Assembly: GCA_015061805.1 (NCBI GenBank)
Contig: SUVV01000002.1
Coordinates: forward strand, 133,523-182,081
Source of the DNA: Lentisphaerota bacterium
GTDB taxonomy: Bacteria > Verrucomicrobiota > Lentisphaeria > Victivallales > Victivallaceae
Length of the DNA stretch: 48,559 nt
Direction of reading: 5' to 3'
Part shown: piece by piece, positions 982 through 41,012 of the stretch
Numbering within the stretch: position 1 is the stretch's first letter
Layout of the letters: the number at the start of each line of letters is the position of its first letter
Program-made: the position numbers and the translations under genes
The notes under the pieces: generated by a model
What the model saw: only the letters and a program-made list of their open reading frames with translations
What the model was told of the DNA's origin: nothing
Databases searched by the model: none

Positions 982-1415
982 GCTTTCCCGGTACTGCCGA
1001 AACCGCCGCTGCCCCGTCCGGATTCGCTCAAAGTGTCAGTTTTGGCCAGAGTTACCCTGGGCAGTTGATTGATGACCATCTGGGCAATGCGGTCGCCCCG
1101 GCGGATTGGGAATTCGGAAGTTCCGCCGTTGTACATGATGACCCCGACTTCGCCGCGGTAACCGGCGTCGATAGTTCCGGGCGAATTGGTGAGCATGAGA
1201 TCGTGTTTGAGAGCAAGACCGCTCCGGGGGCGGATCTGTGCTTCGTAATCCGGCGGCAGTTCAATGGCGAATCCCGCCGGAACCAGCGTACTTTTGCGAA
1301 CCGGCAGAACCATATCCACCCGGCTGCGCAGATCAAATGCGGCATCGTCATCGTGAGCTTTGACCGGCATCAGATCGTCGCAGTTTTCCAACATGGCAAT
1401 TTTGATTTCAGTCAT
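978..1415 (-). CDS. dut: dUTP diphosphatase (trimeric dUTPase)
   Basis: Hydrolyses dUTP to dUMP and pyrophosphate, which keeps uracil out of DNA and feeds thymidylate synthesis. All five trimeric-dUTPase motifs are visible: AAFDL near 25-29, PRSGLA 63-68, NSPGTIDAGYRGEV 77-90 with catalytic Asp83, RGDRIAQMV near 107-115, and the C-terminal glycine-rich GRGSGGFGSTG near 133-143. At 145 residues it is normal length. The gene begins in a TAATG overlap with the upstream MFS gene, whose last codons contain its AAGGAGG ribosome site. It ends in an ATGA overlap with ung. Confidence 0.97.
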   Translation of the reverse strand: MTEIKIAMLENCDDLMPVKAHDDDAAFDLRSRVDMVLPVRKSTLVPAGFAIELPPDYEAQIRPRSGLALKHDLMLTNSPGTIDAGYRGEVGVIMYNGGTSEFPIRRGDRIAQMVINQLPRVTLAKTDTLSESGRGSGGFGSTGKA

Positions 1416-2596
1416 TATTTTACCTCCTTGAGTGCAGATTTCCGCCGTTTATCACCGGCAAAGACTGTGATGTGGAAAATTGTTGCAAGGGTAATGGCAC
1501 CCGCCGCCATGGCAAATGGAGTCCAGGAAATGCCGGATTTTTCAGCCAGCAATCCGCCGAGCATGGGGCCTGCGATACTGGCGATGGAAACCGATATTTC
1601 GTTGATTGCGGCATTGTGTCCGGCTTTTTCCCGGTTTGCCAGCGCGTAAAAGACAAAGATGAAATAGCCGCATCCGGAATATATTCCGTAGAAGAACGCC
1701 GCCAGCAGAAATCCCGGCAGTTCCCGGACAAAACAGAATGAAAGCATAGCGGCAATACCGGTCAGCGCAATCAATACCACCGGGAGAAGTTTATACATCC
1801 AGATCCGGCTTTTGACCAGCGCCAATGCGGTAAGTCCCTGTACCAGACTGACCGTCATCAATGCCAGTGCCATTGTTTCTTTGAGGTTGTCAACTCCGAT
1901 AGCAGCGCCGTGGGGCTGCAGCATACTGCGGAGCTGAGTGACAGAAAAACTGACGATTCCGCCGACGATCCAGCCGACCCAGGCGTAATCCGGGAATTTA
2001 CTGACAATGAGATCGGCGGCACTGGGTTCGTCATCGGTGCTGACCGCGGCAATGGCAGGGTTTTTCTTCAAATTACAGTCGATCAGGGCTACACCGCCTG
2101 CGACGATGACTCCGACGGCAAAGCACATTGAAAAAGCAATCGTTGCATTCAGCAAGCCGAAAGTAACTGCTCCGGCGGCAAACCCGAGGCTCCACGCACA
2201 GGTGTATTTACCGGTGGCCATAGCGATACCGGATTCGCTGTTCTGTTCCAGTTCGCGGCACCAGACCTGAAATGAACTGCAGTAAAATCCGAAGCCGATC
2301 CCGAGTAATCCTGTCCAGATCAGCAGTAAGATCAGATGATCAAGGAAGATGAATCCCAGAGATGATGCAGCAAAGATCATACCGCCGTAAACGATGAGTC
2401 TTGCGGCATTTCTGGAAGTGACCAGTTTCCCGATGATGAGATTGGCGATACAGTAGTTTATTGCCCACATCGGAACCACCAATGCTGACAGCAGCCGGGA
2501 GGCACCGGAATCGACAAAGCGCTGGGTGACATAGAAAAAAACTCCGGAAACGACAAAATTGATCATTGCCGGAAAGAGATAAATCAGGAGCTTCAT
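1415..2596 (-). CDS. MFS-type transporter
   Basis: Polytopic inner-membrane protein of 393 residues with about twelve hydrophobic segments in two halves, separated by a charged loop (near residues 195-215) rich in Asp, Glu and Lys. This is the layout of the major facilitator superfamily; the substrate cannot be read from sequence. The start at 2596 (MKLLIYLFP) is preferred over an in-frame codon at 2632. The earlier codon falls inside the terminator hairpin of the preceding gene, and GGGGA lies a suitable distance before 2596. It precedes dut with a TAATG overlap. Its link to dut and ung is positional only. Confidence 0.8.
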   Translation of the reverse strand: MKLLIYLFPAMINFVVSGVFFYVTQRFVDSGASRLLSALVVPMWAINYCIANLIIGKLVTSRNAARLIVYGGMIFAASSLGFIFLDHLILLLIWTGLLGIGFGFYCSSFQVWCRELEQNSESGIAMATGKYTCAWSLGFAAGAVTFGLLNATIAFSMCFAVGVIVAGGVALIDCNLKKNPAIAAVSTDDEPSAADLIVSKFPDYAWVGWIVGGIVSFSVTQLRSMLQPHGAAIGVDNLKETMALALMTVSLVQGLTALALVKSRIWMYKLLPVVLIALTGIAAMLSFCFVRELPGFLLAAFFYGIYSGCGYFIFVFYALANREKAGHNAAINEISVSIASIAGPMLGGLLAEKSGISWTPFAMAAGAITLATIFHITVFAGDKRRKSALKEVK

Positions 2597-26275: not shown

Positions 26276-26953
26276 ATGTCCGGTAAATTATATATTGTCA
26301 GTACCCCGATCGGTAATCTTGAAGATATCACCATGCGCGCCTTGCGTATTCTCAAAGAGGTCGATGTTATCGCTGCTGAAGATACCCGTCACACCCGGCA
26401 GTTGTTGAGCCACTTCGATATTCATTGCCCCCGGCTGGAAAGCTGCCATGCTTTCAATGAACACGGCAAGGTGGATCGACTTCTGGATGAGGTGGAAAAC
26501 GGGGTGAATATGGCGCTGGTTTCCGATGCCGGAACCCCTTCCGTTGCTGATCCCGGATTCCTGCTGGTGCGTTCTGCGTTGGAACGCGAGATCGAACCGG
26601 TGGTCATTCCCGGAGTGTCAGCCGTCACCTTTGCGGTAACGGCATCCGGATTGCCGGTAGACAGTTTCACTTTCCGTAACTTTGCACCGGTCAAGCCGGG
26701 CAAGCGGCAGAAATTTCTGGAATCGATCGTTGCTGACGAGAGGACGAGTTTTTTCTTTGAATCGCCCTTCCGCATTGCCCGGACGATAGCCGAGATCGCG
26801 GCTATCTCTCCGGAATCCCGTATCGCTGTCATCCGGGAAGCAACCAAACTGCACGAAGAGATCATCCGCGGAAGCGCCGCTGAAGTTGCGGCACAGAACC
26901 GGCAATGGAAAGGCGAAATCGTCGTTGGAGTCGGTCATCCGAACAAGGCGTGA
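26276..26953 (+). CDS. rsmI: 16S rRNA 2'-O-ribose methyltransferase RsmI, short form
   Basis: SAM-dependent methyltransferase that modifies C1402 of 16S rRNA (with RsmH) in the decoding centre. Motifs: TPIGNLEDIT (10-19), AAEDTRHT (33-40), SDAGTPSVADPG (83-94), PGVSA (112-116) and FESPFR (161-166). At 225 residues it is shorter than E. coli RsmI (286): the methyltransferase core is complete but the C-terminal helical domain is absent. The reading frame ends GHPNKA-stop exactly where repeat DNA begins; its TGA is part of a GCGTGAAGC block seen in the array downstream. The start at 26276 follows AGAGGAGAG. It is the only plus-strand gene before 32.6 kb. Confidence 0.93.
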   Translation: MSGKLYIVSTPIGNLEDITMRALRILKEVDVIAAEDTRHTRQLLSHFDIHCPRLESCHAFNEHGKVDRLLDEVENGVNMALVSDAGTPSVADPGFLLVRSALEREIEPVVIPGVSAVTFAVTASGLPVDSFTFRNFAPVKPGKRQKFLESIVADERTSFFFESPFRIARTIAEIAAISPESRIAVIREATKLHEEIIRGSAAEVAAQNRQWKGEIVVGVGHPNKA

Positions 26954-26996
26954 AGCGCTTTTTCAAAACGCGTTGTTCCTGATAAGGAGAGATACT

Positions 26997-27077
26997 CGGG
27001 AGAAGGGAAAAACTTTTTTTCACGGGAAAAAAAGTTTTTCCCTTCTCCCGAACCCTCATCCCTTTTCAAAAAAAGCG
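26997..27077 (-). repeat. Palindromic element, copy A
   Basis: Perfect 24-bp inverted repeat (26997-27020 with 27027-27050) with loop CACGGG, followed by a C-rich stretch and TTTCAAAAAAAGCG. Read on the minus strand this is CGCTTTTTTTGAAA, a G-rich spacer, and the palindrome with loop CCCGTG. This is the same order as copies B and C. Confidence 0.85.
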
Positions 27078-27163
27078 AACTGTTTTGCCGCTCCGTTGTC
27101 GCGGCAGGATTCTCAAAAATAATAACGCAGTTATTGTAGAGATCAGACGTGGTGTGGAAAGTG

Positions 27164-27417
27164 TAAATCCTGCGTGAAGCATTGCTGACGCAATGTGAAG
27201 CGTTTGCCTTTGGCAAACATGAAGCGCTCACTTCGTGAGTAAGGATATGATTGTGTTGGTTTGCGTATGCAAACCAACGTGAAGAGCAGGATAAATCCTG
27301 CGTGAAGCATTGCTTCGCAATGTGAAGCGTTTACCTGCGGTAAACATGAAGCGCTCACTTCGTGAGTAAGGACATGATAAGTTTATGTTTCCTGTTTGCG
27401 ACCAACGGGAGCAAACA
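27164..27417. repeat. Tandem array of short hairpins with GTGAAG hinges
   Basis: A unit of 127-128 bp (starting TAAATCCTGCGTGAAGC at 27164) recurs at 27292, the second copy partial. Perfect stems include 27202-27208/27212-27218 (GTTTGCC/GGCAAAC) and its counterpart 27329-27335/27339-27345 (GTTTACC/GGTAAAC), which differ by a compensating pair change. Others are 27180-27185/27190-27195, 27227-27231/27235-27239, 27255-27264/27269-27278, 27286-27292/27295-27301, 27308-27313/27317-27322, 27354-27358/27362-27366 and 27393-27399/27411-27417. Neighbouring stems are joined mostly by (G/A)TGAAG. Confidence 0.85.
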
Positions 27418-27501
27418 TACCCCGCTTTTCTTGAAAAGGGTTGGGGGTGTGGGGGAGGGGAAAAACCTTTTTTCACGGGAAAAAAGGTTTTTCCCCTCCC
27501 C
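27417..27501 (+). repeat. Palindromic element, copy B
   Basis: Begins ATACCCCGCTTTTCTTGA, then a G-rich spacer, then a perfect 22-bp inverted repeat (27452-27473 with 27480-27501) with loop CACGGG. Compared with copy A, the stem changes ACTTT to CCTTT with the matching change in the other arm. The loop is inverted relative to copies A and C when all are read in element orientation. Confidence 0.85.
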
Positions 27502-27520
27502 ACAATGCCATCTCCCCAGA

Positions 27521-28483
27521 TTATCTCAAACCGACTGCGCGGCGGACTTGAGACATCAGTTTTTCGGCTTCTTCTCTGGCTCTGATGCCGTTTTTACGCA
27601 GGATTTCGTCGACGTAATCGAGGTTTGCGGCGAGTTCTTCGCGTTTTTTCCGCATGGGTTCAAAGAAACTCCACATCTTGTCGAAAAGTTCTTTTTTGGC
27701 GTGGCCGTAACCGTAGTTTCCGGCGCGGTATTTGGCTTTCATCTCTTCGACTTCGGCTTCGTTGGCAAAGAGTTTGAAGAGGGCTACCACGTTGCAGTTT
27801 TCGGGGTCTTTGGGTTCTTCCAGGCCTTTACAGTCGGTAACGATGCTCATCACCTGTTTTTTGATCTCTTTTTCCTTGCCGAAAATCGGAATGGTATTGT
27901 TGTAACTCTTGGACATTTTCTGACCGTCAACGCCGGGGACGATGGCGACCTGATCCGGGATGTATCCTTCCGGAATGGTGAGGATCTCGCCGTATTCATT
28001 GTTGAATTTGATGGCGATATCGCGGGTGATTTCCAAGTGCTGTTTCTGGTCTTTGCCGACCGGGACGAGGTTGGCGCGGTAGAGCAGGATATCTGCTGCC
28101 ATCAGCACCGGATAGGAAAAGAGTCCGTTGTTGGGAGCAAAACCTTTGGCGATTTTGTCTTTGTAACTGTGGGCGCGTTCGAGCAGTCCGACCGGGGTGA
28201 CGGTGTTGAGAATCCAGGCCAGTTCGCACACTTCGGGGACATCGGACTGACGGAAAAAGAAGGTTTTTTCCAGATCGACACCGCAGGCGATGAAGTCCAG
28301 CGCCAGATTGACCACGCGCGCCCGGAGGTCTTCGGCTTTCGGGTTGGTTGTAAGAGAATGATAGTCGGCGATAAAGAGGAAGCTTTCACCGCGGCTCTGC
28401 AATTCGCAGACCTGCCGCATTGCTCCGAAATAGTTGCCGAGGTGGGGGATACCCGACGGTTGGATGCCAGTTAAAATACGCAT
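27521..28483 (-). CDS. trpS: Tryptophanyl-tRNA synthetase
   Basis: Charges tRNA-Trp with tryptophan. Class I synthetase of 320 residues, usual for bacterial TrpRS. The HIGH-type motif sits in GIQPSGIPHLGNYFG (6-20), KMSKS at 189-193 preceded by VPGVDGQ, and the specificity region FSYPVLMAADILLYRANLVPVGKDQKQHLE is intact. GGAGAAAAAAT precedes the ATG. It ends a probable dapA-MBL-lpxK-galK-trpS transcript, and its stop codon lies 19 bp from the palindromic element. Confidence 0.97.
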   Translation of the reverse strand: MRILTGIQPSGIPHLGNYFGAMRQVCELQSRGESFLFIADYHSLTTNPKAEDLRARVVNLALDFIACGVDLEKTFFFRQSDVPEVCELAWILNTVTPVGLLERAHSYKDKIAKGFAPNNGLFSYPVLMAADILLYRANLVPVGKDQKQHLEITRDIAIKFNNEYGEILTIPEGYIPDQVAIVPGVDGQKMSKSYNNTIPIFGKEKEIKKQVMSIVTDCKGLEEPKDPENCNVVALFKLFANEAEVEEMKAKYRAGNYGYGHAKKELFDKMWSFFEPMRKKREELAANLDYVDEILRKNGIRAREEAEKLMSQVRRAVGLR

Positions 28484-28510
28484 ATTTTTTCTCCATATAT
28501 TATTGATTTA

Positions 28511-29656
28511 TCAAGATTCTACCAGAGAGGCTCCATCGCCGATGGAGCAGATGAAACATTGCGGCGTGATACCGGTCCGGGAGTGATATGCCGCAGAAAT
28601 CCGTTGTGAATAGCGTTCTGCTTCGGTGCTTTCGACGAGGTGGATGGTGATTCCCCCGAAGCCGCCGCCGGAGAGTCTGGCTCCGATACAGCCGGGGATG
28701 GAGGTGGAAAGTTCCACCAGACAATCGAGTTCCGGGGTGCTGTTTTCAAAATTCACCCGGCTGGATTCATGTGATGCGTAGAGCAGTTTTCCGAAATCAT
28801 CCATGCGTCCGGCGCGGAGTATTGCCGGAGCCTGCTGTACCCGGAAACATTCATTGACCACATGGCGGGCGCGGGCAAGTTCCATTGCGGATAGGTGATC
28901 TGCGGCATTTTCCAGCATTTCCGGAGTGATATCCCGCAAGGTTTGAATTCCGGGATAGACAGCGGCAAGTTTGGCAGCGGCGCTTTCGCAGTTTTCCCTG
29001 CGCACATTGTAGTCGGAGTCGACCAGGTGATGTTTTATCATTGAGTTGACGACCACGAAAACATATCCTTTTTGCAGCGGCAGAGTATCGATGACTTCAA
29101 CCGAACGGAAATCGCTCATGATGATATTGTCAGCTTTGCCGAAAAGCGAACTGAATTGATCCAGAAGTCCGGTTTTAAGTCCGAGAAAATTATTTTCCAC
29201 GCCCTGTCCGGCGCGTGCCCATTCCGCTTTGTCAAGTTCAAATCCGAATGCCTTGCCCAGTGCCAGACCGGCGGCAGTTTCCAGCGCTGCCGAACTGGAC
29301 ATACCGGCAGAGAGCGGAACATCGCTTTCCAATCCGGCGACGAATCCGGTGAATTCCGCGCCGCGTTTACGCATTTCATTCATCATGCCGATGATGTAAG
29401 CGCTGCCGTTTTTGGGCGGAGGAGCATCCATTGCTGCAAGATCAAAACTCATCTCTTCTCCGGAACGGAAATCAACGATCTGACAGCGGGAAGTTTCCTG
29501 CGGAGTCAACGCAAACCGGGTATTCTGCCCTACGGCACAGGAGAGGACGAAGCCCTCATTGTAGTCGGTGTGGTTGCCGAGGACTTCCAATCGTCCTGGA
29601 GCCTGAGCAATGGCGGCCGGAGCAAAACCGAAGCGCTGGATAAATTTTTCTTTCAT
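28511..29656 (-). CDS. galK: Galactokinase-type GHMP kinase
   Basis: Phosphorylates galactose to galactose-1-phosphate (Leloir pathway). In 381 residues the galactokinase signature is GRLEVLGNHTDYNEG (21-35; usual form GRVNLIGEHTDYN), followed by the ATP-binding GHMP motif PLSAGMSSSAALE (114-126), and C-terminal ARLSGGGFGG. The Glu-to-Asn change before HTDYN and GRLEV for GRVNL place it in a divergent galactokinase subgroup, so another sugar is possible. The ATG at 29656 is preferred to a start at 29713 that would overlap lpxK; the ribosome site is weak (CGGGAAATAATCACA). It follows lpxK by 22 bp. Confidence 0.87.
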   Translation of the reverse strand: MKEKFIQRFGFAPAAIAQAPGRLEVLGNHTDYNEGFVLSCAVGQNTRFALTPQETSRCQIVDFRSGEEMSFDLAAMDAPPPKNGSAYIIGMMNEMRKRGAEFTGFVAGLESDVPLSAGMSSSAALETAAGLALGKAFGFELDKAEWARAGQGVENNFLGLKTGLLDQFSSLFGKADNIIMSDFRSVEVIDTLPLQKGYVFVVVNSMIKHHLVDSDYNVRRENCESAAAKLAAVYPGIQTLRDITPEMLENAADHLSAMELARARHVVNECFRVQQAPAILRAGRMDDFGKLLYASHESSRVNFENSTPELDCLVELSTSIPGCIGARLSGGGFGGITIHLVESTEAERYSQRISAAYHSRTGITPQCFICSIGDGASLVES

Positions 29657-29678
29657 TGTGATTATTTCCCGGAACGAG

Positions 29679-30854
29679 TTACATAAAGCATATACGCGAA
29701 ATACATTGATCAAAACTTTCTTTACCGCTCAAAATATCGATCTGGATGCGCAGATAATAGATTGGAACATCGCAACGTTCGATATGCGGTATGCGGACAG
29801 CATCTTTTTCGGTGGTGACGATCATCTCCGCTCCGTGACTTTTTGCGGTATTGATGAAATCGATGATTTCCTGCTGTGAATAGCGGTGGTGGTCGGCAAA
29901 GTGATCTCTGGCAACCAGTACGGCACCGAGTTGTTCGAGGAACTCTTCAAAACTTTCCGGACGGGCGATCGCGGAAAGCGCCGCCACCTTTTTCCCTTTG
30001 AGGAATTCCAGTTCGACGCTTTCCCGTTCGGTGAAAAGTTTCACCAGATGACGCGGTCGGTGACAGCATTCGATGATTTCCGCGCGGCGGGTGTGGCGCC
30101 GGAGAAAACGTTTGAGGTGCTGATTTTTGTGACTGCCGTCGGATTTGGTCAGAAAGATGTAATCCGCGCGGCGGATATTTTTGATCGGTTCGCGCAGGAT
30201 CCCGCGCGGCAGAACGTGACCGTTGCCGAAAGGTGCGGTGGAGTCCACCAGTACGATATTGATGTGGGGCTTCAATCGCAGATACTGAAATCCGTCATCA
30301 AGGATGATCACATCAGTTTCAAATTCATCGATGGCGTGGATCCCGGACTTTACCCGGTCTTTATCTACGACCACAGCCACATCCGGCAGATTGGAAGCCA
30401 GCATGTACGGTTCATCTCCGGCGTGTTCGCTGTCCATGAGCAGATTTTTTCCGTCGGAAACCACCTGCGGCGGCAGCTCCATTTCGCCGGAGTGGAAAGC
30501 ATGCATCAATTTCTCCCAGAAACTGCGCTTTTTTCTCCGGTAGCCCCGGCTGAGGATCGCCACCTTGCGGCCCCGCGCTGAAAGTGAACGGGCAAAGACC
30601 TCCACCACCGGAGTTTTACCGGTTCCTCCGCAGGTCAGGTTGCCGATGCTGACGACCAGACAACCCAGTGCCTGATTGCGGATGAAGCGTTTGTCGTAAA
30701 GCCAGTGACGGAACTGCACAGCCATCCGGTAAAAGCGCGAAGCGACAAAAAGCACGCAACGTACCACCCGGTCGATCCGGTTGCGCCGTCTGCCTGCCAT
30801 AATGTCGAGGAAATATTGTTCTAATTCCTCAGCGCTGAATTTGAATTTGTGCAT
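29679..30854 (-). CDS. lpxK: Tetraacyldisaccharide 4'-kinase (lipid A synthesis)
   Basis: Adds the 4'-phosphate to the tetraacyldisaccharide precursor to form lipid IVA at the inner face of the inner membrane. In 391 residues an N-terminal membrane-associated basic helix is followed by the P-loop variant [12 protein letters not shown] (71-82). LSRGYRRK and [10 protein letters not shown] near 185-195 (usual DDGFQH) follow, then LPRGILREP. The roughly 60-residue N-terminus before the P-loop is a little longer than in E. coli. Its presence is good evidence that the organism makes lipopolysaccharide. Same transcript as dapA and the MBL hydrolase. Confidence 0.95.
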
Positions 30855-30875
30855 TATATCTTTCAGTTCCGGGAG

Positions 30876-31643
30876 TTACAGTTCAAAAGTGGAACCATCG
30901 GAAGCGACCCGCAACGGTGCTCCCCACGCTTTTTCTGCCCGGGCAAGAGCGTTTTCGTAATCGTTGAGCAATTCTCTGCCGCTGTGAATGAATATGATAT
31001 CTTTGATCTTGCGGCCTTCCCGGCGCAAGGCGGCGCATACCTCTGAACTTTTATGGTGTCCGGTCTCCATCAGCAGCAGATCACATTCATCGAGCCAGTC
31101 CCCCATATCGGCATAACTTTTGACATCCCCGGATGCGACGATGGTCTTGTCTTTGCTCTTTATCCGCAGAGAATAAGAGCGGAACTCTGCGGCATCCGGA
31201 GGATCCATGTGGAAATTGTGCCGTGCTTCAATGGAAATATTGCCGTCATCAAAGAGCAATCCATCCTTTATCTGCTGCGGAATCACGTTGAAGCGCGTAT
31301 TCTTGGAGATCGTCCCCAGCCAATTCTTTGCCGCATCCCACAATCCGGGGATCGGCTGAAACAGCCGGATATCAAAACCGCCAGTCCCCTTGCCGACAGC
31401 GATCAGTTTATCCATGCTCCACAGCAAATTGGGCAATCCGCCGGTGTGGTCGATGTGAGGATGGGTGATCGTAATGGTGCGTATTGACAGCAGATCAAGC
31501 CCCATCAAATGGGCGGTATGATAGCAGCTTTCTCCGGCATCGAACCAGTACAATCCACCGGCGTATTCGATTGCCCACGCGGTATGGTGGCGCCCGGATT
31601 GCGGTTCAGTGCCGGCAGAACTGCCGAAAACATGCAATTTCAT
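30876..31643 (-). CDS. Metallo-beta-lactamase-fold hydrolase
   Basis: Cytoplasmic protein of 255 residues with the MBL signature THPHIDHTGG (60-69; His61, His63, Asp65, His66), FDAGES (34-39), an ASGDVK turn and a C-terminal HSGRE. It lacks a signal peptide. Architecture resembles RNase Z-like or ribonuclease/phosphodiesterase MBL proteins, but no tRNase Z exosite is visible, so only the fold is assigned. GGGGAG precedes the ATG. It sits between dapA and lpxK with gaps of 27 and 21 bp, hence one operon. Confidence 0.85.
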   Translation of the reverse strand: MKLHVFGSSAGTEPQSGRHHTAWAIEYAGGLYWFDAGESCYHTAHLMGLDLLSIRTITITHPHIDHTGGLPNLLWSMDKLIAVGKGTGGFDIRLFQPIPGLWDAAKNWLGTISKNTRFNVIPQQIKDGLLFDDGNISIEARHNFHMDPPDAAEFRSYSLRIKSKDKTIVASGDVKSYADMGDWLDECDLLLMETGHHKSSEVCAALRREGRKIKDIIFIHSGRELLNDYENALARAEKAWGAPLRVASDGSTFEL

Positions 31644-31670
31644 AGGGTCTCCCCGTTGATGAACGGTATT

Positions 31671-32540
31671 TCAGAGAATGCCGCAGTCCTGAAGTGTCTT
31701 TTTGAGAACTTCCGCGTGGGGTGCGCTCATTTCGCACAGCGGCAACCGGTATTCCGGAGTTATCGCTCCGGTCATGCCCATAGCCGCTTTGACCGGGATC
31801 GGGTTGCTTTCAATGAAAAGATTGCGGAACAGCGGATAGTATTTGCGGTGCGCTTTGATTGCCGTTTTGAAATCTCCGGCAAGCGCGGCATCGACCATGG
31901 CGGTAAGTTCGCCGGGAATCAGGTTGGAAGCAACGCTGATGATACCTTTGGCTCCCACCGAGATCATCGGCAGAGTGAGCGAATCATCGCCGCTCAAAAC
32001 GGTAATGTCACAAAGATCAAGGATTTCCGAAACCCGGTCAACACTGCCGCCGGCTTCTTTAACTGCGACCATCAGCGGATGGGCAGAGAGCCGGGCGATG
32101 GTGTCGGTTGCGATCGGAACTCCGGCACGGCCGGGCACATTGTAAAGCACTACCGGCAGACCGGTCTGGTCGGCGATCGTGGTGAAGTGACGGTAGATGC
32201 CTTCCTGGGTCGGCTTGTTGTAATAGGGGGTCACCTGAAGTGAAGCATCCGCTCCGGCAGCTTTGGCTTCGCGGGTGAGGTAGATTGCCTCTTCGGTTGA
32301 ATTCGCTCCGGTTCCGGCGATGACCTGACAGCGGCCGTTGATGATTTCAACGGTGCGGGCGATGACCTGAATGTGTTCTTCGGTGGAGAGGGTCGGAGAT
32401 TCTCCGGTGGTTCCGACCGGGACGACACCGGCAACTTTTCCGGCGACCTGATTTTCGAGCAGAGTTTCAAAAGCTTTCCAATCGATCCTGCCGTTTTTGA
32501 ACGGAGTTACCAATGCTGTATAGACGCCCTGAAATAACAT
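31671..32540 (-). CDS. dapA: 4-hydroxy-tetrahydrodipicolinate synthase
   Basis: Condenses pyruvate with aspartate semialdehyde in the lysine/diaminopimelate pathway, which feeds peptidoglycan. In 289 residues it shows GTTGES (43-48), Tyr107 in TPYYNKP, Tyr133 in LYNVPGR, and the Schiff-base lysine Lys161 in AVKEAGGS. All key residues are present and length is normal. GAGGAAAC precedes the ATG. It is the first gene of the leftward run to trpS and is divergent from the small lipoprotein. Confidence 0.96.
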   Translation of the reverse strand: MLFQGVYTALVTPFKNGRIDWKAFETLLENQVAGKVAGVVPVGTTGESPTLSTEEHIQVIARTVEIINGRCQVIAGTGANSTEEAIYLTREAKAAGADASLQVTPYYNKPTQEGIYRHFTTIADQTGLPVVLYNVPGRAGVPIATDTIARLSAHPLMVAVKEAGGSVDRVSEILDLCDITVLSGDDSLTLPMISVGAKGIISVASNLIPGELTAMVDAALAGDFKTAIKAHRKYYPLFRNLFIESNPIPVKAAMGMTGAITPEYRLPLCEMSAPHAEVLKKTLQDCGIL

Positions 32541-32591
32541 TTTTGTTTCCTCGCAGATAGATTCCTTATAAATTATAGATTGTTCTGTTAT

Positions 32592-32620
32592 AATTTACCA
32601 CCATTTGCAGTTAAAATCAA
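32592..32620 (-). promoter_or_regulatory. Predicted promoter of dapA operon
   Basis: Minus-strand -35 TTGATT (32620-32615), 17-bp spacer, -10 TAAATT (32597-32592). A TATAAT closer to the gene is an alternative -10 but has only a poor -35. Confidence 0.4.
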
Positions 32621-32629
32621 TACTCTTGT

Positions 32630-32657
32630 TTGAAAAAAGCTGTAACTGTGTTAAATT
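32630..32657 (+). promoter_or_regulatory. Predicted promoter of the small lipoprotein gene
   Basis: -35 TTGAAA (32630-32635), 16-bp spacer, -10 TAAATT (32652-32657), divergent from the dapA promoter. The leader would be about 33 nt, ending in the CGGAGAAAA ribosome site. Confidence 0.4.
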
Positions 32658-32697
32658 ATATACAAAACACTCAACATTTGAACGGAGAAAACTCGAT

Positions 32698-33183
32698 ATG
32701 AAAACCTTTTTTTGTGTGATCGCTGCCGTTGGTTCGGCATTGCTTTCCGGCTGTATCTCCTTTGATTACGAAGGTAAAAGCGAAGCCCCGGTGCGTTCTG
32801 CTGAAAATATCCGCATTTTCAACGATGCGACTGCCATCAAGGAATCCTATTCCGTCCTCGGTACTGCCACCGTTTCCGGCTACACTCAGGATGTCAGCCG
32901 TGACCGGATGATCGCCAAACTCCGTTCCGAAGCTCACAAGTGCGGCGCTTCTGCCATTCTGATCGTCGAACAGCAGATCGTTTCGGTTCATTCCGATTCC
33001 GGCAGTCAGCCCTTTACCACTGCATTCGATTACGATGACAGCAGCAACAGCTGGAGCCAACTCTACCGGGATGTCGATCAGAACTTCTCCAACACCCGGC
33101 GCAGCAAACACTCTTACGTTACCCCCGGTGCCACCCGCCGGATCATCCGCGCCGAATTCCTGCGGTATAATAACGCGAAGTAA
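32698..33183 (+). CDS. Small lipoprotein, paralogue of the one at 7590
   Basis: Protein of 161 residues with a lipoprotein signal ending LLSGC (Cys19). The mature part starts ISFDYEG and contains YSVLGTATVSG, then MIAKLRSEAHKCGASAILIVEQQIVSV. This matches in order and spacing the lipoprotein at 7590. The C-terminal third is rich in Ser, Asp and Arg and unrelated. Function unknown; probably periplasmic-facing. The start at 32698 is chosen because GGAG precedes it and the signal peptide begins there; an earlier in-frame codon at 32605 adds 31 unrelated residues. Confidence 0.8.
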   Translation: MKTFFCVIAAVGSALLSGCISFDYEGKSEAPVRSAENIRIFNDATAIKESYSVLGTATVSGYTQDVSRDRMIAKLRSEAHKCGASAILIVEQQIVSVHSDSGSQPFTTAFDYDDSSNSWSQLYRDVDQNFSNTRRSKHSYVTPGATRRIIRAEFLRYNNAK

Positions 33184-33602
33184 GTAAGAAACGGGCGGCA
33201 CGCCCTCGCGCGCGCCAGCTTGGAAAGTTGAGGGAAACTCGTGAACAAAAGTTCACTTCGCCCTCAACTTCCCGGCGCTATCATCGCGCGATCATCGTGC
33301 CGGTTGCAGCCGCGAAGGTTTCGGAACTGCGCGGCTTGTTCTGCGCCAATCGCCGGGCTGTCCGCCCGGCAGGCGGGAGGTAGTGTTTGTTTCGCCTGAC
33401 GGCGATAATAAGGGCGCCAATCGCCGGGCTGTCCGCCCGGCAGGCGGGAGGTAGTGTTTGTTTCACCTGACGGCGATAATAAGGGCGCCAATCGCCGGGC
33501 TGTCCGCCCGGCAGGCGTTGCTGAGCAGTTCCGCGCTGTTTGTACCCCTTTGGTTTTCTTTGTATTTGCCGATCAAATTTTGCTGAAAACTTTCTGCGGA
33601 TG
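33184..33602. other. Repeat-rich intergenic region, no gene seen
   Basis: This holds a small GC hairpin (33193-33197/33201-33205), a long imperfect hairpin (33222-33272; GGAAAGTTGAGGG with CCCTCAACTTCC and an inner GTGAAC/GTTCAC stem), the 71-bp tandem repeat (33343-33518), and an unremarkable stretch up to the promoter. Open frames over the repeats are compositional. Confidence 0.75.
33343..33518. repeat. 71-bp tandem repeat, about 2.5 copies
   Basis: Copies start at 33343, 33414 and 33485 with GCGCCAATCGCCGGG; the third stops after GGCAGGCG. The first two differ at one position (TTCGCC versus TTCACC). Each unit contains GCCGGGC/GCCCGGC and CGCC/GGCG hairpins, and CGGCGAT of one unit pairs with ATCGCCG of the next. 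Confidence 0.92.
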
Positions 33603-33631
33603 TTGAAATCTGCAATAATCGGTGATACATT
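33603..33631 (+). promoter_or_regulatory. Predicted promoter of the first DUF4838 operon
   Basis: -35 TTGAAA (33603-33608), exactly 17 bp, -10 TACATT (33626-33631). Downstream at 33649-33663 is a small dyad ATTGTT-AAA-AACAAT that could bind a regulator, then AAAGGAGG before the ATG. Confidence 0.55.
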
Positions 33632-33683
33632 AAGTTCCGAAGGTGATTATTGTTAAAAACAATTTATTATCAAAGGAGGATTT

Positions 33684-35990
33684 ATGTTCAGATTTTGCAG
33701 TTATGTCATTGGTTGTGTTCTGGCGTTGTCAGCATTTTCTCTGCGTGCGGCACTGCCGCTTGCGGCGAACGGCAAACCGGTTGCCTCCATCGTTGTCCCG
33801 GAAAAATCCGATGTGACTTTGGATTACGCGGCGCAGGAGTTGCAGTTGTGGATCAAAAATATTTCCGGCGCTGAACTTCCCATTGTTAAAAGTGGTGCTT
33901 CTGCCGGTGGTCAGATCGTTCTTGATCCGGCTTCGGTGAATTTCCCGGCGGATGCCAAGCAGTTCAAAGGCAATGACGGTTACTCTGTCCGTCAGAAAGA
34001 TAATAAAGTTTATCTCAATGCCGGCTGTTCCAAAGGTATTCTCAACGGTGTTTTCCGCATGCTCTACAAGAACAGCGACATCATCTGGGCGCGCCCCAAT
34101 CCTGAATTCGGTACGATTTTCACCCCTGATAAAAATTTCACCCTGACCAAGACCGATTACATCGATATTCCGAAATTTCTTCTTCGCGGCTGGCAGATGC
34201 CGCCTGCTTACAAAGACAAGAGCCGCTACAGCAATTTCATCTGGCAGACCCGCAACGGAACCAACTGGAACTCTCTGGAAAATTCCGATCCGGTGAAAAT
34301 CAAATTCGGTACCATTCTGGAAGACGGCGGCGGTCACAACATCGTAGGCCGGTTCATCCGGGAGAAAAAGTACTTCAAGACCCATCCGGAATTCTATCCG
34401 CTCAAGAATGGCAAACGTATGCAGCCCAGCAAGCACAAAGGTTCCGTCCAGCTGTGCTTCACCAATCAGGAAATGGTCAAAGCCTTTATCCATGAAGTGG
34501 ATGAACGGGTCAGACGCAATCCGCACTTTTCCACCTACCGCATCATGAATGAGGATAACCGCAACCTTTGCGAATGTCCCGAATGTATGAAGCCGGTCGT
34601 TCTGGCGGATGGAACGACTGTCGATGTCAAAGATCCGGCGTTCCGTTCCACCCAGTTCTTCCTTTTCCTCAATCAGGTCGGCCGCCACTTCAAGGCGAAA
34701 TATCCGGAAAAACGCATTCTCACCTTTGCTTATCTTTTTACCGTGATCCCCCCCAAGTGCCGGGTCGAAGACAATATTGATATCTCTTTTGCGCCAATTT
34801 CCAAAGATGCCAAGTTTGATATCACTGCTCCGCAGTCTGCCAAAACAATGAAGCAGTTCATGAATTGGATCAAGATCACCCGCAATATCACTCTGCGTGA
34901 ATACTACGGTCTGGGCGGTGACTTCCCGCGTGCGATCGACAAAACCGCTTTCGGTGACTGGCAGTACATGTACAAGCATGGTGTCCGCCGTACCTACAGT
35001 GAAATGCGCGGTGACTTCAAATATCCTGCTTTCCTCGCCAATCCGTGGGATATCAACTCCATGCAATACTGGGTGCTGACCCAGGGCTGCTGGGATCCGA
35101 TGCAGGATTATAAGGCGCTGCGCATGGAATTTCTGACCCGGGTTTACGGTGCAGAAGCGGCTCCGGATATTGCGGAATTCTACGAACTTATCGGCAATTC
35201 ATGGCTCAAACTGACCAGCCGTTCCATTTGGAATGAGGTTGCTCATACCGCCTGGCAGGAAGCTGTCATCAGCAAGCCCAAACTCGTTGCCGCCTGCCGT
35301 GCGGCGCTCAAACGTGCGGAGGGCAAAGTGAAACCTGCCGGTAAAAAGCATTTTGCCGCGCTCAAAGCCGCGTTCGATGTTCACATGAACTTTGAGGCGA
35401 AAAAACTGATCGTCGGCAAACGTACCTCCGGTAATCCCGGACTTGATCCTGATTTCAGTACTGCGGCATGGGTTGCTGCTCCTGTTCATGACCAGTTTTT
35501 CCACAATACCGGGGCTTTCCGCCATCCGAACAAAACTGAAGTCCGGATGCTGTTCGATGACAAAAATATTTACGTCGGGGTGAAGTGCGAATTCCCCAAT
35601 GTCAAAAAGATGAAATACCGTCCGCTGCGTGCCGGTAAAAATGCGGTTCCGCATGGTGAGGGATTTGAGGTTATTTTCTCCTATAAATCAGGGAAAAAGA
35701 CCAATTTGATCCATCTTGCGACCGATCCCTCCGGCAACCGTTTCTCCGGAGGCCGCAAAGTCAATTGGAAGCATGAGGTCAAAATCACCGATTACGGCTG
35801 GTGTGCGCTTTTTACTGTGCCGTGGAAAGATCTGAAACTTACTCCGGCAACCGCCGGCAAAATGCGCGGTCAGTTCATCCGTCAGTATAATCAACTCAAG
35901 GAAGAGGGCAAAGTTCCGTGGACAGCGGCGATTCTTTTCTCCGGCCGCCGTCGGCAGTCGAAATACTATCATCCGCTTGAATTCAAATGA
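33684..35990 (+). CDS. DUF4838 secreted protein with C-terminal CBM9-like domain
   Basis: Protein of 768 residues with a signal peptide (to about 22). Residues 30-130 resemble the alpha-glucuronidase/GH20-type N-terminal domain (LDYAAQELQLWIKNISG). A DUF4838-type central region follows: HPEFYPL (234-240), LCFTN (257-261), MNEDNRN then Cys296-x-Cys298-x2-Cys301. From about 580 a CBM9-like beta domain appears (EVRMLFDDKNIYVGVKCEF, EGFEVIFSY). I infer a glycan-active protein at the cell surface; activity unproven. Where the paralogues have (N/S/H)-D-G, this one has N-E-D, so it may be divergent in activity. AAAGGAGG precedes the ATG. The next gene starts 12 bp later. Confidence 0.8.
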   Translation: MFRFCSYVIGCVLALSAFSLRAALPLAANGKPVASIVVPEKSDVTLDYAAQELQLWIKNISGAELPIVKSGASAGGQIVLDPASVNFPADAKQFKGNDGYSVRQKDNKVYLNAGCSKGILNGVFRMLYKNSDIIWARPNPEFGTIFTPDKNFTLTKTDYIDIPKFLLRGWQMPPAYKDKSRYSNFIWQTRNGTNWNSLENSDPVKIKFGTILEDGGGHNIVGRFIREKKYFKTHPEFYPLKNGKRMQPSKHKGSVQLCFTNQEMVKAFIHEVDERVRRNPHFSTYRIMNEDNRNLCECPECMKPVVLADGTTVDVKDPAFRSTQFFLFLNQVGRHFKAKYPEKRILTFAYLFTVIPPKCRVEDNIDISFAPISKDAKFDITAPQSAKTMKQFMNWIKITRNITLREYYGLGGDFPRAIDKTAFGDWQYMYKHGVRRTYSEMRGDFKYPAFLANPWDINSMQYWVLTQGCWDPMQDYKALRMEFLTRVYGAEAAPDIAEFYELIGNSWLKLTSRSIWNEVAHTAWQEAVISKPKLVAACRAALKRAEGKVKPAGKKHFAALKAAFDVHMNFEAKKLIVGKRTSGNPGLDPDFSTAAWVAAPVHDQFFHNTGAFRHPNKTEVRMLFDDKNIYVGVKCEFPNVKKMKYRPLRAGKNAVPHGEGFEVIFSYKSGKKTNLIHLATDPSGNRFSGGRKVNWKHEVKITDYGWCALFTVPWKDLKLTPATAGKMRGQFIRQYNQLKEEGKVPWTAAILFSGRRRQSKYYHPLEFK

Positions 35991-36002
35991 TCCGGGGGCG
36001 TG

Positions 36003-37433
36003 ATGCTGAAAAAAATCTTGTTATTGTGCGTGATTTTCGGGGGAATGGTTATGGTTGATGCAAAGGAAAAATATTTCCCGGTCGAAGAACTCATCCCCGG
36101 CAGCTGGTTTGTGAATTCGATTCAGAAGACCCGTGCTGACCGCGAAAAGTTTTATCTGGAAAAATTGGCAAAAATCACGCCGGATGATTCCCGGCGTTCC
36201 GCCTGCGCCGAAGCATTTCACCGGATGCTCGAAATCAATTCTTTTTCCAGCAACCGGGCAGAAGATGAAGCCATCGAACGCGCGCTCGGCTGGAAAAAGG
36301 GTGATTTCACCTGGCACAACAATACTTTTTACACCAGAACCGGATGTACTTCATGGATAATCACTCCGGATGTTTCGGCAACCGGAGCGTGTATGGTTCA
36401 GAAAAACCGGGACTTCAAGGGGCAGAATCTCTTGAGCGCCCGGCTTTACCGGGCATGTCAGGGTAAGTACAAAGTTATCACTGTAAATGATCTCTGGAGT
36501 TCCGGCGCCGGTGCAGTGATGAATGAAAAAGGTCTGATGATCGTTCAGAATGACGGCAGTTCAGTCTTGAAACAGGAACTTCCCAGCCGCAGTATCACCG
36601 TCGGTTGTATTTTTATGCTCCGGCACATCGCTGAACATTGTGCGAACCTTGAAGAAGCGGTGGCAATGTTGAAAAAATTCTACCGCACCGGTCTCGGCCG
36701 CTCTTCATCCATATATCTGCTCGCTGATCTCGACAGCGGCGCGATCATTGAAACTACCGGAAAACATCTTGCTTACGCGGAGGTCAATTTCGCTTATGAG
36801 GTGCGCGCCAATAACTATCTGCTCCCCGGAATGCGCAGTACGGTGAAAAAGAGCCGTGAAGCCTTTCTCAACGGCGCCAACCGCCGCTATGCCGCTTCGG
36901 AATTTCTCCGCAAAGTGGTCGCTGATAAAGGCAGGATCGCTCCTTTTGATCTGATGCGGCTTGCCCGTTTCCGTCAGCCCGGCATTGAGAAAACTTACAA
37001 ATACCGTTCAGTTTGTGTCAATGCATCACTTGCCAGTACCATGTTTGTTCCTGACCGGCAGTTTCCGGAATACCTGAGCGTTGCGTTTGTTGCGCTCGGT
37101 CCCCAGCGGCACACGGTTTTTCTGCCGATTCCGATGGGCTTGAGTGCCATGCCGGAGTCGCTTGTCAATGGTGACTGGGGCAGCAAGGCTATTGCTCTTT
37201 CGGAAATTCTGCCGCTTGATCACAAACATATTACGGAATTTGAAACGGTGGAAACCCGCTTTATTGATGAGTTTTTTGCCGCCAGAGAAAAGGCACGGAT
37301 GCTGCTTGTCAGCGGCAAACGTCCGGAAGCGGTGAAACTGCTGGATAATGTTTTCCGCAGACAATATGACGAAGCTAAACAATTTTTGGCTGATTTTACT
37401 GAAAAAGCAACCAAAATCAAGGATAAAAAATGA
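36003..37433 (+). CDS. Secreted C45-like N-terminal-nucleophile hydrolase (AAT family)
   Basis: Protein of 476 residues with a signal peptide ([19 protein letters not shown]). Residues 112-140 read [10 protein letters not shown] then [10 protein letters not shown], the pattern of acyl-CoA:6-aminopenicillanate acyltransferase and C45-type Ntn hydrolases. In that family a Gly-Cys bond is cut autocatalytically and the new N-terminal Cys (here Cys115) is the nucleophile. [12 protein letters not shown] and [13 protein letters not shown] fit the fold. Probable substrate: an amide or acylated amino sugar or peptide. GTG at 36000 directly precedes the chosen ATG. It overlaps the prepilin gene by ATGA and follows the DUF4838 gene by 12 bp. 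Confidence 0.75.
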
Positions 37434-38458
37434 TGTCACTCAAAAGTTTTCTCAAGCGCCGCGGCAAACTGGAACTGCAAAATACCCCGCTTTTCTTGAG
37501 CGGCAAACGTGCCGCTTCGGAGGTGTCGCGCCCATCCCGTTGGTCGGGCTTGATCGAATCTCTTAAAAATACCCCGCTTTTCTTGAGCGGCAAACGTGCC
37601 GCTTCGGAGGTGTCGCGCCCATCCCGTTGGTCGGGCTTGATCGAATCTCTTAAAAATACCCCGCTTTTTTTGAAAGAGAAAGGGGGCGCGGGGGAAAGAG
37701 GAAACTTTTTTTCCCGTGAAAAAAAGTTTCCTTTGTCCCCCGCACACTCCCGTTTCACTTTAATAGAACTGTTGGTTGTTATTGCAATTATTGCGATTTT
37801 GGCGGCGATGCTGCTTCCTGCGCTGCAGAGCGCGCGTGAACGTGGCAAGGTTACTGCATGTTTGAGTAATGTCCGGGAAATATCCAAGGCGACCCAACAG
37901 TATTTCGATAATTACGATGCGTTGGTCACCGGCAACAAAGAATATGTTGAAGATGACTGGATCAAAGGTGTGATGAAGGAAATCCGGCTCAGCGAGGATA
38001 AACTCAAGACCAAAAATCATGTTATGTACTGCCCGAATTCCAAAAGTGCCGCCCGTGCCTATCTGGCAGATTACCGTACCTATGGTGTCAATGCGTGGAT
38101 GGGAACCAATCCGTGGTACAAAGCCAAAGCCTATTCCAATACTGATAAAGGTGGATTCAAGCGGGTTCGCAAACCGAGTCAGGTGTTCTTTATCGCTGAA
38201 GGTCAGCAGACCAATTACCGGAATTTTGGGGTGAATGAACGGACGATTGCTGTAAACGGCGAAACCAAACAGCAAGTAGTCTATGGTCATGGAAAAGGGG
38301 CGACCAACTCGTTGCGAACCGGTACGGCCAGTTTCTTTGACGGTTCGGGAATTATTATAACGCCCAAATCCATCACCCGGCGTTATTATGTGGTCATCAG
38401 TCCGACCGGGGAGGTCGCACGGGCGGCAAGTAAAACTGCTATGGCACCGGATTTTTGA
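37430..38458 (+). CDS. Prepilin-type protein with repeat-derived leader
   Basis: Open frame of 342 residues. The type IV prepilin/pseudopilin helix ([24 protein letters not shown]) begins at residue 109, followed by [20 protein letters not shown] and a soluble domain ending near FFDGSG. The leader is abnormal: 17 residues, two identical 29-residue units ([15 protein letters not shown]...), then [33 protein letters not shown] from a palindromic element. The ATG at 37430 has AAGGAT seven bases upstream and overlaps the previous stop, so translation through the repeats is plausible. Prepilin leaders are normally 5-30 residues. No ATG, GTG or TTG with a ribosome site is evident close to the helix. 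The residue before the cleavage Phe is Arg instead of Gly. Confidence 0.75.
37484..37657 (+). repeat. 87-bp tandem duplication inside the prepilin gene
   Basis: 37484-37570 and 37571-37657 are identical; 87 is a multiple of three, so frame is kept. Each copy starts ACCCCGCTTTTCTTGA (the start of element B) and contains a GCGGCA-AACG-TGCCGC hairpin. A third, diverging copy is element C. Confidence 0.95.
37656..37741 (+). repeat. Palindromic element, copy C, within coding sequence
   Basis: ATACCCCGCTTTTTTTGA, G-rich spacer, then a 24-bp inverted repeat (37690-37713 with 37718-37741, two mismatches) with loop CCCGTG. It is read in frame as [17 protein letters not shown] immediately before the prepilin helix. 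Same family as copies A and B, 10 kb away. Confidence 0.9.
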
Positions 38459-38507
38459 TGATCGGAATATGTTTTCATGCTACAATATGTAAGGGACTTG
38501 AAATTTT

Positions 38508-41012
38508 ATGAAAAAAAATGCTTTGATTGCAGGCGTGGTTGCTATGAGTTTGATTTCAACATCGTGTTCCACATTGGAAAATGCGCCCGGAGGAATATAC
38601 GCCGGTTGCGGTGACAAGGTGATGACCATCACCGAAAACGGCAAAGCCAAAGCGACCATCGTGGTTGCCGCCGATGCTCCGTATAAAAATCAACTCGCAG
38701 CCAAAGAGTTGAAGCACTTCCTCGACCGGATTTCCGGTGCGGATTTTGTGATCAAGACCGACGATCAGAAAGTTACCGGTCCGAAAATTCTGGTTGGCCG
38801 CAGCCGTTATACTGCCAGAATGAAACTTGATATTCCTTCCGGTGAGAGTTATGAGGAGATCAAAGAGGGATTTCTCATCAAGACGGTCGGCAGCGATCTG
38901 GTGCTGGCGGGCAACGATGACGGCTGGAATCTGGCAAGCGGCAGAGGCGGACGGGCGCGCAAAAAGACTGCTCCCCTTGCCGGACGTCCGTGGGATTTGG
39001 ATTTCGGCAAGGCGTACAAAGGAACTCTCTTTGCGGTCTATGCTTTCCTCGAACAGCTCGGCTGCCGCTGGTATATGCCCGGTAAACTGGGTGAAGTCGT
39101 CCCTGCCAACAAAAATATTTCCATTGGAAAACTTGATATTCTGGAACGCCCCGGCTTCCTGATGCGCGGTTACTGGCTCACTCCGGACAAAAATGCCGCC
39201 AACGATCTGGATGCGTTTTTCCACCGCAACCGCTTTTTGGAATTCAGTGCCGGATTCAGCAATGCCGAAGACAGTTCAATTCACCGTTTTATCACCAATT
39301 CGATGTTTGAAAAGCACCCGGAATATTTCGGATTGATGCCGGACGGCAAGGGCAGGGATATCAAAGTTATCTGCATGACTCATCCGGAGGTCGAGGAGAT
39401 CCTGGTGAAAAAGATCCGGGAATTTTTCAAAAAGAATCCGGATGTCACCTATGTCGGGTTTGCCCCCCATGACGGCATGTTCATCTGCTACTGTCCGAAC
39501 TGCCTTGCCGCCAACGGCAATATCCGTAAAGAGGGCGTTGCCGGCCGCGGCAAACCTTCGGTCAGCGGTTCTTACTACCGGTTGATCAGCAACGTTGCCG
39601 CCCGGTTGAAGCCGGAATTCCCGGATAAGATAGTTTCGGCGAGCATCTACTGCGGCAGAATCTACACGCCGCCCACCGAATTCAAATTTGCGGATAATGT
39701 CGGCGGACACCTTGCGCTTCTGGAATATTCTCTGGTCAAACCGATCGATCATCCGGATAACTGGCAGTCGCAGCAGATCGCCGCGATGTTCAAGGCGTGG
39801 AAACGGCGCATGGACAAGTTCATTTACCGTCCCTATTATCCCAACTTCATGTTTAATCTGACTCTGCCCATCCCGCAGATGCACAATATCATCCGGGATG
39901 TGAAATTCCTCGCCCACCCGGAACGCAAACCGCTGGGAATGCGCTGGGAGTGCCGTCAGGTCTGGAATCTGCACTTCCTCAATATATATATGTTGGGAAG
40001 AATGCTCTGGAATCCCGACAGTGACGGCGAAAAACTGCTCGATGAGGCCTATTGCAAACTGTACGGCCCCGCCGCTCTCCCGGTCAAAAAATTCTATACC
40101 GCCCTCGAAGATGCGGTGCGTAATTTCACGGTAAACACCCACGAGGAGGAGTTGATCCCGGAATTTTACAACTATGAATTCATTTCCGGTTTGATGCCGC
40201 TGATCGATGAAGCCGAAAAGTTGACTGCAAATTCGACGGATGAAAATCTCAAACTGCGGATAAAGATGCTTCGCATTACCGCCGATCATATCCACACTTA
40301 CAGCGAAATGCGCGGAGTGTGCGAGCGCAATCTGGATTATGCCCGGGCTGCCAAACTGGCGGAAAAAATGCAGAAACTGGAAGCGGAGATGATGAAACTC
40401 AACCCCAGTTCATTCAAGCCGTCGGATTACCGTATGGATAAGCGTCCGGTGTACGGCAAGTTCGGTGCCAACCGTTCTTCCTACGGCAAGATGATGCAGT
40501 ACCGCAACACCGATGCCCTGCGCAACGGCACCGAAGGCACTCTGGCGGTCGATTTCCCGCGCATTTGGAAATTCAAGACTGACGAACTGTCGCTCGGTAT
40601 CATGGATGAGTGGTTCCGCAAAGATCTGGATATCTCCGACTGGAAAGATATCCAGGTTCCCCGGGCAATCGAAATGCAGGGATATTTCACCGATAAAAAG
40701 CACATGGTTCCCTATCTCGGAGAAATGTTCTATGCCACCGACTTTGAATTGGATGGCAAATTCGATCCGGATAAACTCGCGATCTATGTTGGCGGTATCA
40801 ATAATGAAGCATGGATTTGGATCAACGGTCAGATCGTTGCTTATCAGCCATTCCACAGTTGGTGGGCGCGGTATAATTATACCTGGACGCAGGATTTGCC
40901 TGCCGGAGTGCTGAAACCGGGCAAAAACCGGATCACGGTTCGGGTCATTGCCATGGATAAGAGCGGTTTCGGCGGCATTTTCCGCAACATGTTCCTGTAC
41001 CAGAAAAAGTAA
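38508..41012 (+). CDS. DUF4838 lipoprotein with C-terminal beta-sandwich domain
   Basis: Protein of 834 residues, lipoprotein signal ISTSC (Cys20). N-terminal GH20/GH67-type accessory domain (about 50-130: NQLAAKELKHFLDRISGADF), then AVYAFLEQLGCRWYMPGKLGE, HPEYFGL (270-276), ICMTH (288-292), FAPHDG (318-323) and Cys327-x-Cys329-x2-Cys332. From about 690 a GH2-like sugar-binding beta-sandwich (FYATDFELDGKFDPDKLAIYVGGINNEAWIWINGQ). Predicted outer-membrane-anchored glycan hydrolase-like protein; catalytic residues are not established, though Asp322 next to the Cys cluster is a candidate. AAGGGA precedes the ATG. It begins 49 bp after the prepilin gene and ends in a terminator. Confidence 0.8.
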   Translation: MKKNALIAGVVAMSLISTSCSTLENAPGGIYAGCGDKVMTITENGKAKATIVVAADAPYKNQLAAKELKHFLDRISGADFVIKTDDQKVTGPKILVGRSRYTARMKLDIPSGESYEEIKEGFLIKTVGSDLVLAGNDDGWNLASGRGGRARKKTAPLAGRPWDLDFGKAYKGTLFAVYAFLEQLGCRWYMPGKLGEVVPANKNISIGKLDILERPGFLMRGYWLTPDKNAANDLDAFFHRNRFLEFSAGFSNAEDSSIHRFITNSMFEKHPEYFGLMPDGKGRDIKVICMTHPEVEEILVKKIREFFKKNPDVTYVGFAPHDGMFICYCPNCLAANGNIRKEGVAGRGKPSVSGSYYRLISNVAARLKPEFPDKIVSASIYCGRIYTPPTEFKFADNVGGHLALLEYSLVKPIDHPDNWQSQQIAAMFKAWKRRMDKFIYRPYYPNFMFNLTLPIPQMHNIIRDVKFLAHPERKPLGMRWECRQVWNLHFLNIYMLGRMLWNPDSDGEKLLDEAYCKLYGPAALPVKKFYTALEDAVRNFTVNTHEEELIPEFYNYEFISGLMPLIDEAEKLTANSTDENLKLRIKMLRITADHIHTYSEMRGVCERNLDYARAAKLAEKMQKLEAEMMKLNPSSFKPSDYRMDKRPVYGKFGANRSSYGKMMQYRNTDALRNGTEGTLAVDFPRIWKFKTDELSLGIMDEWFRKDLDISDWKDIQVPRAIEMQGYFTDKKHMVPYLGEMFYATDFELDGKFDPDKLAIYVGGINNEAWIWINGQIVAYQPFHSWWARYNYTWTQDLPAGVLKPGKNRITVRVIAMDKSGFGGIFRNMFLYQKK

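Follow-up and report, generated by a model that had tools for sequence, protein, structure and literature searches.

The described repeats closest to the element reported here are palindromic and can lie inside protein genes. Rickettsia palindromic elements (RPEs), given as 105-146 bp or about 150 bp long, form strong stem-loops and are described as occurring both between genes and in frame within protein genes, where they are tolerated (PMC2229807, PMC10969869). Small bacterial MITEs with open frames, such as ERIC and Yersinia RU-2, are described as 100-200 bp elements with hairpins that form in-frame fusions, and one such MITE is reported as part of a predicted signal peptide (PMC2229807). 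In-frame palindromic repeats are usually regarded as chance, tolerated insertions. A third group, the REP elements with RAYT transposases, consists of short palindromes with many intergenic copies near gene ends.

Here we describe palindromic cassettes in prepilin-like genes that resemble each of these groups in part. Compared by literature description rather than by RPE sequences, RPEs are the nearest known kind: the cassettes are also palindromic and also lie both between genes and in frame within them, with a basic spacing slightly longer than an RPE. However, RPEs enter unrelated genes, whereas prepilins were the sole place where the motif-ended insert was found; it uses a single codon boundary there, brings a copy of the motif that it interrupts, and is often nested. 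With the MITEs the cassettes share hairpins and in-frame fusion, but their target is a coding motif and their motif copies, although doubled, are no more alike than shuffled pairs within genomes, which sits poorly with a simple target duplication. They share short palindromes and many intergenic copies near gene ends with the REP/RAYT systems, yet the genome holds no intact Y1_Tnp match and cassette copies stand in frame inside coding sequence. In-frame repeats in proteins are thus known, while a repeat that repeatedly lands in one signal and restores it looks new; among the titles listed in a literature search, none concerns repeat-made prepilin leaders. The best overall explanation, which we regard as probable, is that palindromic cassettes enter prepilin genes inside the signal motif, restore it and are translated as a tolerated leader.

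The prepilin-like gene in the window

The window, the whole stretch of 48,559 nucleotides that was analyzed, contains a prepilin-like ORF of 342 residues (37430..38458, + strand) that is open throughout and encodes a 108-residue leader followed by the signal motif, helix and body, with the helix ([16 protein letters not shown]) running from residue 109. The protein contains the type IV prepilin N-terminal methylation motif, scoring 21.3 bits against TIGR02532 (cut-off 16.3) and 20.4 bits against Pfam N_methyl, slightly below the cut-off of 21.2. It shares with type IV prepilins and pseudopilins the helix with Glu5; differences are leaders that reach 164 residues in its genome and, among the prepilins examined, an almost complete lack of Gly at position -1. 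The first ATG (37430) overlaps the TGA stop of the upstream gene (ATGA, 37430-37433), and a Shine-Dalgarno-like AAGGA (37419..37423, + strand) lies 6 nt upstream of it, in agreement with the ribosome site and coupled start that the first-pass annotation had pointed out.

That annotation had also described two identical 87-bp copies and a palindrome, in frame before the helix, and this architecture was borne out. The 29-codon units at 37479..37565 and 37566..37652 (both + strand) are 100% identical and are followed by a partial third copy. The hairpin module ([31 protein letters not shown]) occupies 37653..37743 (+ strand) and includes a palindrome at 37688-37743 with 26-nt arms that are 92% complementary and a 4-nt loop. 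A motif copy in the cassette spelling (FTLIELL-GT) follows at 37754..37776 (+ strand), and the host gene resumes at 37777, with diversity rising from base 24. Upstream of the 87-bp units, the left arm of the cassette (37436..37486, + strand) is identical at 38 of 51 nt to each of six cassettes compared from the same genome; this segment is therefore repeat too, so that nearly all of the window leader is element. Compared with other genes, the window gene lacks the first FTLIELLV together with a few codons after it. It seems to have since lost its first motif, and it is because this motif is missing that the insert looks as if it lay upstream of the motif.

The RNA of the segment 37479-37760 is predicted to fold at -120.8 kcal/mol (z -6.3), a value as low as which was reached by none of 200 shuffles. 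So stable a fold would fit a regulatory role for the cassettes, with strong hairpins early in the coding sequence acting on prepilin transcription or translation and the peptide being incidental. Another set of short palindromes in leaders, with FTL codons as the 3' arm (see below), points the same way. We nevertheless consider such a role unlikely, as orthologues bear unrelated leader types and regulation has no need of a doubled motif.

Position of the inserts within the signal motif

A prepilin-helix query matched 48 places in the window's own genome, 44 of which were fetched (four weak ones, one on contig C6 and three on C14, were omitted). The 44 ORFs listed were reduced to 41 by a helix filter and de-duplication, with L004 and L010, both cut by contig ends, among those dropped (L and G numbers are labels for loci and genomes). 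Inserted leaders were present in 22 of the 41 prepilin ORFs. Leaders measured 41-164 residues in the insert-bearing ORFs with a complete 5' side and 5-28 residues in the others. By hand count, 18 of the 22 leaders contain all or some of the hairpin module, and the inserts of the remaining four are of other kinds (the first ORF of L005, L042, L056 and L065). Among the matches listed by a BLAST search with 37560-37760 (see below), those covering the 87-bp unit lie in eleven prepilin leaders, two of them truncated by contig ends.

Related genomes carry such leaders as well. DNA matches at E <= 0.001 were found in 27 of the 40 genomes searched, the own genome included, with the strong ones in the same genus. 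The first-pass annotation had proposed looking among relatives for leaders of this type, and ORFs carrying at least two motifs were indeed found in ten genomes of the genus, again counting the own one; L003, L175, L191, L195, L204, L205, L231 and L232 have three or four. The relatives were sampled unevenly, as 60 stretches chosen from a ranked match list, mainly within contigs and some with a hairpin only, and duplicate re-fetched stretches were excluded from the counts. Two of 80 named loci from elsewhere (L103 and L107, from assemblies named Lentisphaeria and Lentisphaerae) also have two FTLIELL motifs in one ORF, with differing inserts, and L103 has a similar G-rich hairpin ahead of its second motif. 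Searches with the cassette gave no match in a phage collection and none in a plasmid collection. From viral contigs, 80 of 122 loci were kept; the cassette check covered the five that were translated, which align from query residue 4 or 5 and have leaders of 16-40 residues with no cassette, the other loci aligning from residue 18 or later. As a separate observation, L231 (G021) and L232 (G018), counted as two species, have an identical three-motif leader in the stretch printed, which may reflect descent, transfer or contamination.

Throughout the ten genomes the insert directly follows FTLIELLV, within the signal motif, and ends in its own FTLIELL-GT, leaving two copies of the motif and an intact helix. 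The gene order in many cases is accordingly FTLIELLV, the insert, and then the complete helix sequence. The first-pass annotation had placed the insertions upstream of the prepilin cleavage site: many prepilin genes are hit, as it supposed, but in genes that retain the first motif the insert interrupts it, following FTLIELL-GT, instead of preceding it. For 16 of 57 upstream copies the motif-to-motif spacing has its basic value of 180 nt. Exact motifs account for 99 of 104 last copies, as against 44 of 55 upstream copies (Fisher P 0.004).

The two motif copies differ in how their spelling varies. On the left, spelling changes from gene to gene; on the right, it is near-constant within a genome up to the GT and gene-specific beyond it, and the five right copies of G001 show zero variation over 23 nt. 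In G008 and G015 third positions of the right motif do vary (0.387 vs 0.463 on the left), so the right junction is less sharp there. The right-end 23-mer has 17 matches in the own genome with at most one mismatch; 16 of these run on into prepilin helix codons and the 17th (C4:1-23) is cut by the contig end. A simple target-site duplication would fit the doubling of the 23-nt motif but has no support from the spelling, in which the two copies resemble each other no more closely than do shuffles within genomes (P 0.25).

The main rival explanation draws on the same junctions. After one founding event, cassettes could have spread by recombination or template switching among the roughly forty [12 protein letters not shown] coding copies, with no mobile step. 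This would account for the sighting of motif-ended cassettes only at prepilins, for the mosaic look of the right motifs in G008 and G015, and for wholly different leaders on orthologues with 87-93% identical bodies (see below). However, cassettes of the own genome that are identical over their first 50 nt follow left motifs that differ in their LL codons right up to the junction, which argues against recombination inside the left motif, as this should bring the donor's codons along. We rate spread by recombination alone as a serious contender, if somewhat short of an even chance.

Reading frame, start codons and the fate of the leader

The favored reading, in which the cassettes are translated as leaders, makes the reading frame a central point. 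A frame-blind search of the 800 bp upstream of 104 last motifs found 57 motif copies, not all of them independent, of which 54 are in frame and stop-free, where 19 would be expected in frame. The three out-of-frame copies come from two loci, L203 and L240. Control searches gave one match on the reverse strand and one downstream. With only the nearest copy per locus counted and similar bodies collapsed, 44 of 45 are in frame (P 3e-20).

Start codons are placed consistently with this. The 5' side is present in 66 insert-bearing ORFs and absent from eight more. An ATG precedes the insert in 64 of the 66, and in 55 such an ATG has a Shine-Dalgarno-like site by a loose definition, a site found before 71 of 1534 ATGs inside bodies; as these ORFs were picked by in-frame cassette peptides, the audit of start codons presupposes the frame. 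None of the 66 has an ATG between the insert and the last motif. The first-pass annotation had named an internal start just before the helix as a finding that would speak against it. Such a start would have to be a TTG or GTG inside or after the cassette, leaving the cassette as 5' untranslated DNA, and 48 of the 66 ORFs do have an in-frame TTG or GTG in that interval. Yet none of these has a Shine-Dalgarno-like site, and a late start would not call for a frame kept in nearly all motif pairs, collapsed or not; we consider it very improbable. The retained frame, the upstream starts and the exactness of the last motif together indicate that translation very probably runs through the insert and that the working motif is the last one, in line with the earlier proposal that the leader is made. 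Gene callers should be warned that the true start of such genes would lie far upstream of the conserved helix.

Whether the leader is also removed is a different matter. The genome encodes an A24 prepilin peptidase in an intact ORF of 291 residues (E 2e-15). Prepilin peptidases usually require Gly at position -1. This residue is nearly absent here, being present in 1 of 77 insert-bearing prepilins and 3 of 27 other prepilins, and the window protein has Arg instead; cleavage therefore cannot be assumed despite the intact peptidase gene. The suggestion that the extra residues are discarded thus found no support. Either the peptidase is relaxed in these bacteria, or the leader stays on many such proteins. 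To account for survival, it would suffice that the leader is tolerated on the cytoplasmic side.

Empty sites, proposed mechanism and palindromes elsewhere

Orthologous loci without the element, which the first-pass annotation had suggested seeking, do exist. L236 (G018) has one motif, while its counterparts L239 in the own genome (the L011 gene) and L234 in G003 (the L176 gene) are filled, with inserts that directly follow FTLIELLV. Neighboring proteins of L236 and L239 are 87% identical over 377 residues and 82% over 301 residues, with one side inverted, and the body of L236 is just 59% identical to that of L011. The 23 nt at 1414-1436 of L236 align both before and after the L239 insert, and this comparison of filled and empty site indicates that the 23-nt motif, and nothing more, is duplicated.

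Other orthologues differ in the kind of leader they carry. Counterparts of the window gene in G045 (L168) and G003 (L169) are 51-52% identical to it over helix and body and have the same downstream gene. The L168 leader retains only QQNTP...KP, which looks like the scar of an in-frame deletion, and L169 has an unrelated palindromic leader. The bodies of L168 and L169 are 93% identical, and the DNA alignment of the two loci ends at the motif. With leaders wholly different between orthologues whose bodies are 87-93% identical, leaders change far faster than bodies, as judged from these alignments. By contrast, the trio L014, L174 and L178 has one leader common to three genomes; N/S counts in the leader of one orthologue trio gave too few changes to decide.

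All cassette-bearing genomes used are draft assemblies in which repeats break contigs, so false joins at single loci are possible, and many copies do lie at contig ends. An assembly artefact in which repeats glued unrelated prepilin halves together is nonetheless extremely improbable as a general explanation: many copies lie well within contigs, in ten genomes, the L014 trio has its single leader in three of them, and the alignment of L234 with L239, each holding the insert, extends over 3638 nt.

We propose the following course of events. A family of non-autonomous palindromic cassettes in the genus, with the basic spacing given above, would enter prepilin genes at a single position, just past the GT that opens the eighth codon of FTLIELLV. 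Each cassette would keep the frame and end in its own FTLIELL-GT, which would once more place a full signal motif ahead of the host VIAIIAIL. Translation from the old start codon through the cassette would then give a leader of about 40-160 residues, which would lie on the cytoplasmic side of the helix and presumably be tolerated there. The last motif would be the working copy, while earlier copies would decay and might disappear, as seems to have happened in the window gene. The DNA itself shows the positions, the frame, the duplication of the motif, its decay and the empty orthologous site, whereas translation, tolerance and the loss of the first motif in the window gene are inferred and the joining step is the least certain part. 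We think it most likely that the cassette is joined to the gene where its own motif copy pairs with that of the host. A precise left end together with a right end that carries the motif suggests joining through the motif, as does the occurrence of motif-ended cassettes only at prepilins when the bare hairpin is also common between genes. No recombinase for the cassette was identified in the genome, and a RAYT transposase was rejected as the mover: the sole Y1_Tnp match (E 2.4e-12; genome 91% complete) is broken by three stops and leaves an open frame of 83 residues.

A stronger version would make the cassette a signal-motif homing element, one that, itself non-autonomous, recognizes the coding sequence of the prepilin motif, integrates at the eighth codon, brings a replacement motif and multiplies, nested, in dozens of genes of the family without breaking them. 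We put this forward tentatively and regard it as on the whole doubtful. What sets the present case apart from chance insertion is that, across genes and genomes, the inserts recur at a single codon boundary in a single protein family and rebuild the interrupted signal. If the favored reading holds, it would be a clear, testable case of a repeat that survives because it repairs the signal it disrupts, and nature would have provided an experiment on the length and oddity that a prepilin leader can reach.

The hairpin module also occurs away from leaders. In the window, related hairpins lie between genes at 26996..27086 (- strand) and 27414..27501 (+ strand), confirming that the element recurs in intergenic DNA 10 kb away. 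A BLAST search with 37560-37760 gave at least 81 matches in the own genome, where 40 of 96 candidates were scored. Of 35 non-leader hairpins, five overlap an ORF, and by eye three of these ORFs look spurious; in L022 and L071 the C-terminal end of the ORF extends into the hairpin, and the L022 one (1396-2412, minus strand) is a non-prepilin ORF that appears to reach the module close to its C terminus. An open hairpin core in the leader's frame is also seen in 32 of 39 non-leader copies, so openness by itself shows nothing, and we rejected it as a sign of selection. In a tally made by hand with ORFs called by a simple rule, 27 of 30 non-coding hairpin copies (L015-L038 and L068-L078) lie 16-50 nt past the stop of a gene and antisense to it, a placement that would be that of a terminator-like 3'-end element; a further one, in L032, follows a gene at a distance of 45 nt and has the same orientation as that gene. 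An Rfam search of 26500-38600 gave no match at gathering score. Other repeats in the window include an array of 71-bp units (33343-33517; 2.5 copies, 99% matches) before a DUF4838 gene (33684), and two 63-bp copies (27189-27378; 92%) with small hairpins joined by ATGAAGC, beside a hairpin at 27255-27278.

A second class of leader palindromes stands directly before the first motif, in L049, L060, L044, L046, L051, L047, L206, L240 and others. In 20 of 66 leaders a perfect stem of at least 9 bp takes in the FTL codons of the gene itself as part of its 3' arm (0.15% of shuffles); the corresponding counts are 1 of 85 for prepilins from named genomes and 0 of 53 for those from viral contigs. Some of these leaders are common by descent. 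Across 28 such palindromes with stems of at least 8 bp, the arm follows seven codon spellings of the motif.
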